From: Thioalkalivibrio nitratireducens DSM 14787
GTDB lineage: Bacteria; Pseudomonadota; Gammaproteobacteria; Ectothiorhodospirales; Ectothiorhodospiraceae
Length of the DNA stretch: 64,000 bases
NCBI RefSeq assembly: GCF_000321415.2
Contig: NC_019902.2
Location: forward strand, 2,046,001-2,110,000
Direction of reading: 5' to 3'
The notes beneath the pieces are model-generated. The model had not been told where the DNA came from. It saw only the letters and a list, made by a program, of their open reading frames with translations, and did not search any database. Position 1 is the stretch's first letter, and every line of letters begins with the position of its first letter. A program made the translations under genes and the position numbers. Below, piece by piece: positions 60,908 to 63,901 of the stretch.

Positions 60908-61534
60908 TCAGCGCATGAACGGCATCATGATGCTCTCGGGGCGCGTGAACCGGTTCATGTCGTGCGCCATGCGGCTGATGTCCTGGCCGATCCGGCCCAT
61001 GCTCTGATTCATGGCCCCCATGTTCTGGTTCATGTGGGTCATTTGTTGCGTCATTTCCGTCATGCTGTCGTTCATCTCGACGATGTTCGGTGTCATCAGC
61101 GCCATGTCCTTCTGAACCATATCCAACGAAGCCGTCATGCCGGTGATATTGCCGTCGAGGTTCGCGACGCTCGACTGCATCGCATGGATCACACCGACCA
61201 GGGTCGAGATCTCGCCGGTCATCGTCGCGATGTTCTGGGAGAGCTGCGCGATGTTCTCAGACATCGCGAGCATGTTCTCTTCCATTTGCGGGTCCACGGC
61301 GCGCGACATCCGGGCCATGTCTCCGGTCAGATTGTAGATCAGGTAGAAACCGGACAGCACCAGGACGCCTGTGATCAGCATCGACGGATATACCATCCGC
61401 TCCCATCGACGCACACTGCCTTCGAACGCGCGGAAAAAATTGCTGAGCGCGATCTCCAGCTTCACCATCGCCTTCTGCTCCGGCGACAGATTCTGGTATT
61501 CGGGAGAGAACGTGCGTGGATCTTTCTCAAACAT
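60908..61534 (-). CDS. membrane-anchored protein with 16-heptad methionine-rich coiled coil
   Basis: A 208-residue protein. A cytoplasmic lead (residues 1-47) and one membrane span (about 50-69) precede an unbroken run of 16 heptads (residues 84-195). Positions 1 and 5 of each heptad are Met, Ile, Leu or Val, for example MTQQMTH and MNQSMGR. The final 13 residues are FTRPESIMMPFMR. No family is recognised; the coil suggests an oligomeric stalk on the periplasmic side. Confidence 0.8.
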   Translation of the reverse strand: MFEKDPRTFSPEYQNLSPEQKAMVKLEIALSNFFRAFEGSVRRWERMVYPSMLITGVLVLSGFYLIYNLTGDMARMSRAVDPQMEENMLAMSENIAQLSQNIATMTGEISTLVGVIHAMQSSVANLDGNITGMTASLDMVQKDMALMTPNIVEMNDSMTEMTQQMTHMNQNMGAMNQSMGRIGQDISRMAHDMNRFTRPESIMMPFMR

Positions 61535-62197
61535 CCCTGGATCGCCTCGAGATCGGTGTCGGTGCCGGTGACTACACGGGCGCTTCCCGGAAGTACCGAA
61601 GTGCCCTGACCGCGCTCCCGCGCGGCTTATCCGCAGCACACCTGACCCCCCGATACCCGGCGCGCGGGGGCATACGGGCGGCACGCCGCGCCTGGGGATC
61701 CCTGGGGCCTGCCTCGGCAATCTAGTCTCTTGGGTGCCCGTCCGTCAACGCACGCCCCGGCTCGCAGGGGCCGGCGCACACGGCAACAGCCTCCGCGCAA
61801 CGTTGGCGATACGCTGCACCCGCCAACCTACCCGTGTACCGCATGCCCCGCGCCGGTGGTCGCCGCATATCGCCGCGGCCCGGGATCCATCACCCGGTAC
61901 GCCCTGCCGGCCCTGGCAGATGGCGCACCCGCCGTTGGCGACAGCGCGAGCCGTTCCGGGGGCCGGCACCGAATGTGAACTCGCGCACATTACCCGCCAG
62001 GGCGTTCAGTGGTTGTTCAGATCACCGCGGATATTCTGGCCTCGACGACGGGAACAACGCTTCCCGAACGTCGCGGGGACCGGGATACCGGACCCGGAAC
62101 GGCCGGAAGACTTCGCCCGGTGATGACGCAGAAACCCAGTGGGCGAATCACGACGGCGCAACTGCAACGCACCGTACCAACCAATGAGGATCGCCAC
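61535..62197. other. long gene-free region upstream of the curlin-like cluster
   Basis: About 660 nt with no convincing gene on either strand. It should contain the promoter of the curlin-like genes. The one site I can support is the CRP-like palindrome at 61972-61991. Confidence 0.45.
61972..61991 (+). promoter_or_regulatory. CRP-like site upstream of curlin-like genes
   Basis: AATGTGA-ACTCGC-GCACATT has the CRP layout TGTGA-N6-TCACA with one mismatch in ten core positions and matching AA/TT flanks. It lies about 207 nt before the first curlin-like start. Confidence 0.4.
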
Positions 62198-62515
62198 ATG
62201 AAAAACAACCCCAAGTTCCTGTCCCTGGCCATCGCGGCCACCCTTCTCGCATTCGGTGGTGCCGCATCGGCACAGACGAATTACAACACCACCATCCAGG
62301 AAGGCCATATCAACACCAACGATACCTACCAGGCGGGGCGTTACAACGACAACGCGACCTACCAGGAAGGCCGGGACAATGCCAACCGCACCCGCCAGCG
62401 CGGTACCGAGAACTGGAACCAGACCGGGCAGTTCGGCCGGTTCAATTACAACGAAACGCACCAGACCGGCCTTTCGAACCGCAGCAGCCTCACGCGCGGA
62501 CGGGGCCGCAACTGA
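62198..62515 (+). CDS. secreted curlin-like repeat protein 1
   Basis: A 105-residue protein with a signal peptide (LSLAIAATLLAFGGAASAQ). From about residue 34 it consists of five exact 11-residue repeats and a sixth partial, consensus Q-x-G-x-x-N-x-N-x-T-x (example QAGRYNDNATY). The Q-x-G-x-x-N core is the curlin (CsgA/CsgB) amyloid motif, but here every 11 residues carry it, half the usual period. The basic tail (RGRGRN) ends the protein. Probably secreted to the cell surface. Confidence 0.75.
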   Translation: MKNNPKFLSLAIAATLLAFGGAASAQTNYNTTIQEGHINTNDTYQAGRYNDNATYQEGRDNANRTRQRGTENWNQTGQFGRFNYNETHQTGLSNRSSLTRGRGRN

Positions 62516-62580
62516 ACCGTGCGCCGGCGCCCGACCGCGGGTGCCGGCATTTCTGCGAATACCACCGGAGACATCCAACG

Positions 62581-62874
62581 ATGAAAGGCATTCTGATCCC
62601 GAGCGGGCTGGCCCTGCTGCTGGCCGCACCGATCGCATTCGGCGACGCCCCGCGCGAACGTACTCATGGACCCTGCTTCAACGTGACCATCCAGGGCGAC
62701 CGGGTCAACGATGCCCGGGTACGGCAGGAGTGCGACATGACCTTCAGCCGCACCGTGCAGGCCGGGCAGCACAATTCGGTCGAAACCATCCAGAGGGGGC
62801 GCGTGAACGACAACAAGGTTCGCCAGTATCAGCACGACTGGGCCGGTTCCCGGCACCACCGGGCGGGGCGATAA
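62581..62874 (+). CDS. secreted curlin-like repeat protein 2
   Basis: A 97-residue protein with a signal peptide (GLALLLAAPIAFG). Two adjacent 11-residue repeats (QAGQHNSVETI and QRGRVNDNKVR) and a degenerate earlier one (QGDRVNDARVR) match protein 1. Two Cys (GPCFNV, RQECDM) could form a disulfide bracketing the first repeat. Shares strand and spacing with proteins 1 and 3; the ATG follows a weak ribosome site. Confidence 0.68.
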   Translation: MKGILIPSGLALLLAAPIAFGDAPRERTHGPCFNVTIQGDRVNDARVRQECDMTFSRTVQAGQHNSVETIQRGRVNDNKVRQYQHDWAGSRHHRAGR

Positions 62875-63032
62875 ACGCGGCAGCGACGCGGCCTGCCGGA
62901 AACGCGGGCCGCGTGCCGCCCACCGCACTGCCCTCGGATCCCGAGCCGAGTGCCCCCAGCCGTGGGGTGCACCCCGGGGTCCGGCACCCGGGAGCAATTT
63001 CGCACCCGTTCCCCTAACTTGAGGTACAACCG

Positions 63033-63356
63033 ATGGAAAAGCCAACCGCCCGGAACAGCCTGACCCTGGTCCTGGTCCTGGCACTTCTTCCCGCCCTGCT
63101 CGCGACCGCGTCCGCTCGCGACAACGGTAACACCACCGTCCAAACGGGACAGGTCAATATCAACCGCACCGTGCAGTGCGGCGACACCAACGACAACGTG
63201 ACCCACCAGGACGGCCGCATCAACATCAATCAGACCGTTCAGGGCGGATGCGGCGGCAAGGGCCATGCCTATGGCCGTTCCGGCGACACCCAGCGCGGGC
63301 ACGCGGCTCAGCGCGCCGGGCGCTCCGCGGCTGCCGCCTCCCGGGCACACCGGTGA
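63033..63356 (+). CDS. secreted curlin-like repeat protein 3
   Basis: A 107-residue protein with signal peptide (TLVLVLALLPALLATASA). Three perfect 11-residue units follow (QTGQVNINRTV, then QCGDTNDNVTH, then QDGRININQTV), then a Gly/Ala/Arg-rich tail. Two Cys lie in QCGD and GGCGGK. The order and repeat match proteins 1 and 2. It may be a curli subunit paralogue. Confidence 0.7.
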   Translation: MEKPTARNSLTLVLVLALLPALLATASARDNGNTTVQTGQVNINRTVQCGDTNDNVTHQDGRININQTVQGGCGGKGHAYGRSGDTQRGHAAQRAGRSAAAASRAHR

Positions 63357-63511
63357 ACCGGTCCACCCCCTGGCCCGTCGTCCGGCCGGCTGCACCGCCG
63401 TTGGCAGGCAGGCCAGTGCGCCCCCAGACCCGGCCGCAGTCGATGCACCGGCTTCGGGGCGGCATCGCCCAGACGACGGGCGCGGCCACTACGCACACGA
63501 GAGGAGATCCG

Positions 63512-63901
63512 ATGAACAACCGAAACCAGGCCAGCGCACTCCTCAAACCGGCCCTCGTGATCGCCACGATGCTGGTGGCAGCCAGCGCGAATGCGGGTTG
63601 TGCCACGGCCGACGTGCATACGCCCGGCGGTTCGACGACGGTCATTCACCATGACGCCAGTCCGGGGTTCACCGAATCGCGCGTGATCCGTTATCGCGAC
63701 GGGCATAAGGTCATCACCCGGGACGGGAACAACACCGACATCACGGTACAGCGCAGCACGGCGGGCGGCGCCTTCGGCGGCCACAACCGGTTCGACCGTG
63801 CTCCAGGAGACGGCCGTTTCCGCACCACCGAACCCGCCGACACCCGCGAGTCTTTCCGGCAACGCATGCTCGAGCGGTTGAGGCAGCATCCGGACCCATG
63901 A
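63512..63901 (+). CDS. exported protein at the end of the curlin-like cluster
   Basis: A 129-residue protein behind a GAGGAG site, with signal peptide (PALVIATMLVAASANAG). The mature part has a beta-rich segment (STTVIHHDASPGFTESRVIR, GHKVITRDGNNTDITVQRST) and a charged tail (ESFRQRMLERLRQHPDP). It lacks the 11-residue repeat, so it may be an accessory rather than a subunit. Not recognised. Confidence 0.65.
   Translation: MNNRNQASALLKPALVIATMLVAASANAGCATADVHTPGGSTTVIHHDASPGFTESRVIRYRDGHKVITRDGNNTDITVQRSTAGGAFGGHNRFDRAPGDGRFRTTEPADTRESFRQRMLERLRQHPDP

Follow-up and report, generated by a model that had tools for sequence, protein, structure and literature searches.

A conserved cassette of diverged curlin-like genes in Thioalkalivibrio nitratireducens and related genomes without a detected curli CsgG

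The Fap amyloids of Pseudomonas are functional amyloids made from an operon of their own and are not known to use CsgG, and in this they would resemble the gene cassette described here. In the curli proteins the published base signature of the half-repeat is N-x-psi1-x-psi2-x-Q, where psi may be A, I, V, L, F, S or T, and a 'centrosymmetric' (CS) class carries a near-identical core-facing motif repeated in both strands (Sleutel et al. 2023, PMC10192328); a Halomonas CsgA was reported with two minimal repeats within each repeat (PMC3521004). These two papers also describe curlins found apart from the usual machinery, namely the csgH-associated curlin-only loci of Alphaproteobacteria, in which curlin subunits occur without other csg genes (PMC3521004), and a small share of CsgA-bearing genomes that have no CsgG channel (PMC10192328). 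Here we analyse a stretch of 64,000 nucleotides from Thioalkalivibrio nitratireducens DSM 14787 (G000:C1:2046001-2110000, hereafter the window; the genome is a single contig of 4,002,350 bases with a completeness of 100), which holds four adjacent genes, A to D, encoding three curlin-like proteins and a probable lipoprotein. Their coordinates in the window are as follows.

Gene A, 62198..62515, forward strand: exported curlin-like protein of 105 residues with six 11-residue half-repeats, presumed major subunit
Repeat block of A, 62279..62476, forward strand: six units N-x-N-x-T-x-Q-x-G-x-x, residues 28-93
Gene B, 62581..62874, forward strand: exported curlin-like protein of 97 residues with five degenerate half-repeats and the Cys pair C32/C51, presumed minor subunit
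Gene C, 63033..63356, forward strand: exported curlin-like protein of 107 residues with four half-repeats, a Cys pair and a Gly/Arg-rich tail
Repeat block of C, 63123..63254, forward strand: four units, residues 31-74
Gene D, 63512..63901, forward strand: probable lipoprotein of 129 residues (Cys30), predicted to have four strands and a helix at its C-terminus; presumed to act as membrane anchor or as nucleator
Stretch N-x-D-x-T-x-Q of D, 63731..63751, forward strand: resembles a curlin half-repeat, residues 74-80, read by eye

An initial annotation of the window had proposed proteins at 62198, 62581 and 63033, followed by a fourth, and all four frames are open where it placed them; the starts of B and C are as listed among the open reading frames (ORFs), while those of A and D are ATG codons internal to longer listed ORFs that we chose ourselves. 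The N-termini look like the signal peptides that had been claimed (judged by eye), and a fourth exported protein is indeed encoded and is conserved across homologous loci.

A, B and C share the unit N-x-N-x-T-x-Q-x-G-x-x, which is regular in A and C and degenerate in B. Same-residue matches at a lag of 11 in the mature protein numbered 29 for A against 6.4 ± 2.3 in shuffled sequences (0 of 10,000 shuffles reached 29) and 17 for C against 5.9 ± 2.3 (0 of 10,000 reached 17). For B we counted 8 against 4.3 ± 2.0, a value attained by 595 of 10,000 shuffles, so that its period alone is not significant; the B family aligns in the same register. The same self-similarity test gave no lag-11 periodicity for D. 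The exact repeat initially claimed for three proteins therefore stands far above shuffles in A and C but is degenerate and marginal in B, and the early counts of five-plus, two-plus and three units, although they concerned real repeats, were too low, the actual numbers being six, five and four. The Cys pair noticed in two members is present in B and C: both Cys of B are invariant in 12 of 12 sequences, whereas C has an invariant first Cys and, in all 12 rows, a second whose position shifts slightly.

The Pfam curlin model PF07012, used with its curated cut-off, matched none of A, B and C, nor anything else in the whole genome. Other curlin models did respond. The NCBIfam CsgB model matched A with E=6e-6, though far under its 165-bit cut-off, and more weakly B (0.0052) and C (0.017), both under the equivalog cut-off, while eight control copies of A, either shuffled or permuted by column, gave no match to CsgA or CsgB. 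A profile built from 13 A homologues retrieved a single sequence from the PDB, 8c50, a 'Curlin associated repeat-containing protein' (2.2e-6). The diverged A homologue of locus L088 matched the A profile at 1e-20 and scored 32.0 bits with PF07012 against a cut-off of 20.7. Because intermediates such as this one bridge to PF07012, homology to curlins is well supported. The curlin-like reading of the initial annotation was thus upheld by NCBIfam CsgB, 8c50 and the L088 match, even with PF07012 silent on the window proteins themselves.

The contrast that had been drawn with known curlins, in which a ladder in each strand would set these proteins apart, was overstated: curlins with a single motif serving both strands have already been published as the CS class (PMC10192328). 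Since the curlin half-repeat and this class are both published, the 11-residue period alone is not new. Like CsgA and CsgB of the CS class, A, B and C carry the half-repeat N-x-psi-x-psi-x-Q-x-G-x-x in every strand, and the cassette has further in common with curli the signal peptides, several adjacent paralogues and matches to both CsgB and CsgA models. Unlike these curlins, A is short, B and C bear Cys pairs, a lipoprotein-like D lies within the cassette, and the core-facing residues of A differ: in the 13 A proteins psi1 is Asn in 78/78 units, which puts A outside the published signature, and psi2 is always Thr or Ser (78/78). The presumed inward positions of A are hence all polar, and many motif residues are invariant in the alignment of these 13 sequences. 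In B, psi1 is Ser, Ala, Val or Thr in 35 of 49 units and Asn in 13. The A proteins of a second cassette type, A-B-D-E (see below; n=7), have Asn at psi1 in 22 of the 35 units retained, and for this reason the polar core of A looks like a shift inside the curlin family. In one genome with this second type (G046, L053:9195-9805), gene A is tandemly duplicated and the repeats have Ala or Ser at psi1, nearer to canonical curlin.

AlphaFold2 drew A as six strands about 11 residues apart with low confidence (predicted local distance difference test, pLDDT, 66.5; predicted template modelling score, pTM, 0.42), and the nearest known structures were antiparallel sheets. The model thus showed strands and not disorder, but no match to the beta-solenoid that had been suggested.

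The order A-B-C-D is kept in 14 loci (the window, L005-L012, L014-L016, L054 and L089), which are not all independent since they include close kin (L005/L006; L008/L009/L010/L089); two more cassettes, L013 and L056, are interrupted by contig ends. Ratios of nonsynonymous to synonymous substitution rates (dN/dS) across A to D were 0.07-0.40 in the 16 pairs computed, showing that the four genes are under purifying selection. C was seen exclusively in A-B-C-D cassettes, and in a phylogenetic tree the C proteins form a clade separate from all A proteins (99/99), while the B proteins divide by cassette type with moderate support (80/89). No gene outside the cassette is common to all compared loci, although some of the contigs are short and near relatives have the same flanks.

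D is probably a lipoprotein. By eye, 19 of 20 homologues have a Cys preceded by Gly or Ser where the hydrophobic stretch ends, the exception being that of L012; the -3 residue of these lipobox candidates is often other than the usual Leu. Structure prediction gave the four strands and the C-terminal helix with low confidence. The strict curlin half-repeat signature occurs in 11 of 20 D proteins, compared to 2.6 ± 1.4 in shuffles, with 14 matches in total compared to 2.8 ± 1.6 (0 of 2000 shuffles reached 14), counts that are inflated by the relatedness of the sequences. The D protein of the window itself does not match the strict published signature; its stretch at 63731..63751 falls outside because of an Asp at psi1.

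In six more distant loci (L052, L053, L085, L086, L087 and L088, of which L085 and L086 are nearly identical) the order is A-B-D-E, without C, so that C and E alternate between cassette types in the data in hand. The E genes directly follow D.

L052:6642-8129, E gene
L053:11210-12700, E gene
L085:1932-3401, E gene
L086:10371-11840, E gene
L087:6370-7845, E gene
L088:2565-3959, E gene

The E proteins, of about 465-497 residues, begin with curlin half-repeats, whose hydrophobic positions look canonical by eye, and continue into an autotransporter beta-domain. All six exceeded the cut-off of PF03797 (112.7-137.2 bits) and matched PF07012 at E <= 0.04, above its cut-off in two (L085, L086) and sub-threshold in four; the five that were run against NCBIfam all matched CsgB or CsgA models at <=1.7e-4, the best at 8e-8. 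E shares with classical (type Va) autotransporters a near-complete match to the beta-domain, but differs from them in its short passenger, in which about six curlin half-repeats can be counted by eye, and in being encoded beside free curlin subunits. The known E genomes G046 and G166 aside, the window genome and 15 others were searched for full-length E, and it was found in none of them. Beside E, we also observed a lipid-transport-like set, comprising an ABC ATPase, MlaD and an auxiliary lipoprotein at L087:3658-6239 and MlaD at L085:4046-5182.

The initial annotation had seen no csgE/F/G-type gene in the window. This held beyond the window, where ten downstream ORFs gave 0 matches to csg families, and none was present among the neighbour genes given to Pfam; CsgE, CsgC/CsgH and CsgD were without a genome-wide search. 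In the whole window genome CsgG (PF03783) gave nothing at E <= 10 and CsgF was not found, while control genomes matched in both cases. We extended the CsgG search to the 17 genomes with an A-profile match, of which 13 have a full A-B-C-D cassette, two a contig-cut one (G029, G035), one a fragment (G038) and one, G046, the only A-B-D-E genome covered; several are drafts, three of them at 77-80% completeness. No match at E <= 10 was obtained in 13 of the 17, and no curli-type CsgG was detected in any. Judged from their sequences, the three matches over the cut-off do not look like curli CsgG: those in G014 and G033 read as SH3-tailed lipoproteins in the same gene context, and that in G051, next to a kinase, as a protein with PEGA-like repeats; a sub-threshold match in G046 lies within what reads as an aspartokinase. 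At L055:8448-9470 and L048:1168-2190 we noted a CsgG-domain lipoprotein with an SH3-like C-terminus, placed between ubiA-like and aroE-like genes (by eye) and unlike the curli channel.

The cassette is rare and patchy. The A profile matched 12 of 47 genomes in the order of the window organism and 9 of 210 in that of Thiocapsa (G047); in a class-wide sample of 369 genomes it matched 2, the window genome included. The 12 named hosts with A, mostly metagenome bins, are 7 Thioalkalivibrio, 3 Thiocapsa, 1 other Chromatiaceae and 1 Competibacteraceae. The window genome also has two full-length dsrA genes, at G000:C1:775290-776495 and 1775437-1776630, both above the model cut-off.

The flanking genes inspected vary by lineage. 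Just past the window's downstream edge there are genes for an NMT1-type binding protein, for an asparaginase and for a Phosphonate-bd/PAS/GGDEF/EAL protein, while L008 (Thiocapsa) has an AcrB-type pump and a UvrA-like gene, L012 a two-component system and SpoVR, and L016 topoisomerase/RecQ. The Phosphonate-bd/PAS/GGDEF/EAL gene (L001:4201-7713, G000) adjoins the NMT1-type gene and encodes in a single protein a Phosphonate-bd periplasmic domain, PAS domains, GGDEF and EAL. A GGDEF-EAL-type neighbour, or fragments of one, is present in seven of the compared loci, several of them from Thioalkalivibrio, which hints at a possible link to cyclic di-GMP. Upstream, a divergent gene at 60908-61630 of the window (reverse strand) encodes a protein of 240 residues that has a single hydrophobic stretch and a long, probably helical repeat rich in Met and Asn, and for which Pfam gave sub-threshold matches only.

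We lean towards reading the locus as a diverged curlin-family amyloid cassette working without CsgG, in which A would build the fibre, B and C would be minor subunits bearing Cys, and D and E would serve as membrane anchors or nucleators. Amyloid formation is inferred here, and so are the role, topology, location and export route proposed below for each protein. A would be exported via its signal peptide and, being homologous to curlins, is expected to stack as beta-arches: its 11-residue strands would pair into curlin beta-arches, six strands giving three arches per subunit, which would stack into a fibre whose interior holds an Asn/Asn/Thr/Gln ladder in place of the usual aliphatic zipper. 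B, which is CsgB-like, and C, a paralogue of A, would be the minor subunits, initiating or capping the fibre, and D, with its curlin-like strands, may anchor or seed it on the membrane. In the second cassette type, the curlin repeats beside the barrel of E would place the seed at the outer membrane, a role analogous to that of CsgB on CsgF-CsgG in E. coli. Neither CsgG nor E was found in the window organism, and therefore A may form a periplasmic polymer there or leave by some other exit.

The first of these two outcomes amounts to a somewhat unlikely alternative to the CsgG-independent amyloid cassette that we favour: with CsgG and E both missing, the products of the A-B-C-D genes would remain periplasmic and, held by D as a tether, serve as an internal scaffold or storage polymer. 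Signal peptides, a probable lipoprotein and Cys pairs suited to an oxidising compartment all fit, as do the lack of an outer-membrane exit gene in the cassette and the failure to find full-length E in the 16 genomes searched besides the two known E genomes; E. coli without CsgG and CsgC is reported to accumulate intracellular amyloid (PMC4389571). The A-B-D-E cassettes point instead towards the outer membrane, and amyloid in the periplasm would be toxic unless controlled. It is less probable again that the proteins are not amyloid at all and share the curlin period only, as small Asn/Gln-rich periplasmic beta proteins binding, for example, metals or glycans. The all-polar presumed core and the antiparallel sheets nearest to the AlphaFold2 model would agree with this, but a curlin model recognises A and none of its 8 permuted versions, and in L085, L086 and L088 the cassette holds curlin repeats that score over the Pfam threshold. 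We give little credit to ordinary surface curli with a CsgG that is encoded elsewhere and has diverged too far for the Pfam model to match. In favour of this, A and B resemble curlins, and PMC10192328 reports CsgG for 41,041 of 43,279 CsgA-bearing genomes and gives 1033 (2%) as the number lacking it; however, PF03783 is silent at E <= 10 in a single-contig genome while controls match, no curli-context CsgG appeared in the 17 A-profile genomes, and CsgF was not found in the window genome (CsgE not searched).

A role as envelope proteins of the periplasmic sulfur globules of sulfur-oxidising bacteria is weakly supported at best, and we consider it very improbable. Eleven of the 12 named hosts (Thioalkalivibrio, Thiocapsa and Chromatiaceae) belong to sulfur-oxidising groups, and among 30 genomes of the window's genus 7 have both A and dsrA, 4 A only, 3 dsrA only and 16 neither (dsrA counted over the cut-off, plus the split gene of G033), an association that is confounded by kinship. 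Sulfur globules are common in the Thiocapsa order, yet A occurs in just 9 of its 210 genomes; G046 has the cassette and no dsrA match, while dsrA-bearing genomes of other genera (G011, G041-G045) have no A. Finally, the failure to find E and CsgG in the window genome could be taken to indicate a curli locus decaying after loss of its channel, an idea that is largely contradicted, and scarcely credible, given the dN/dS values, the many invariant motif residues of the 13 A sequences and the four genes staying together in 14 loci.

The locus recalls the curlin-only loci of Alphaproteobacteria but belongs to Gammaproteobacteria and has a fixed A-B-C-D or A-B-D-E layout, with D and E not described in the available sections of PMC3521004 and PMC10192328. 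What is new is a conserved cassette in genomes without a detected curli CsgG, with a lipoprotein-like partner, a polar core and, in sister cassettes, a curlin-autotransporter fusion. More tentatively, and with less confidence than in the amyloid cassette itself, we propose a CsgG-independent curli branch in Gammaproteobacteria, in which seeding would be ensured, in place of a CsgB-CsgF-CsgG complex, by E (A-B-D-E) or, in the absence of its barrel, by D and Cys-bearing curlins (A-B-C-D), around an all-polar Asn/Thr/Gln ladder, the product being periplasmic or otherwise exported. CsgG is regarded as the exit of curli, and the curlin-bearing genomes without it are mentioned but left unexplained in the parts of PMC10192328 at hand. 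With this cassette and its barrel-bearing sister, other ways of anchoring or exporting a curlin become testable with two small operons, and an all-polar curlin core would test the need for a hydrophobic zipper in curlin stacking.
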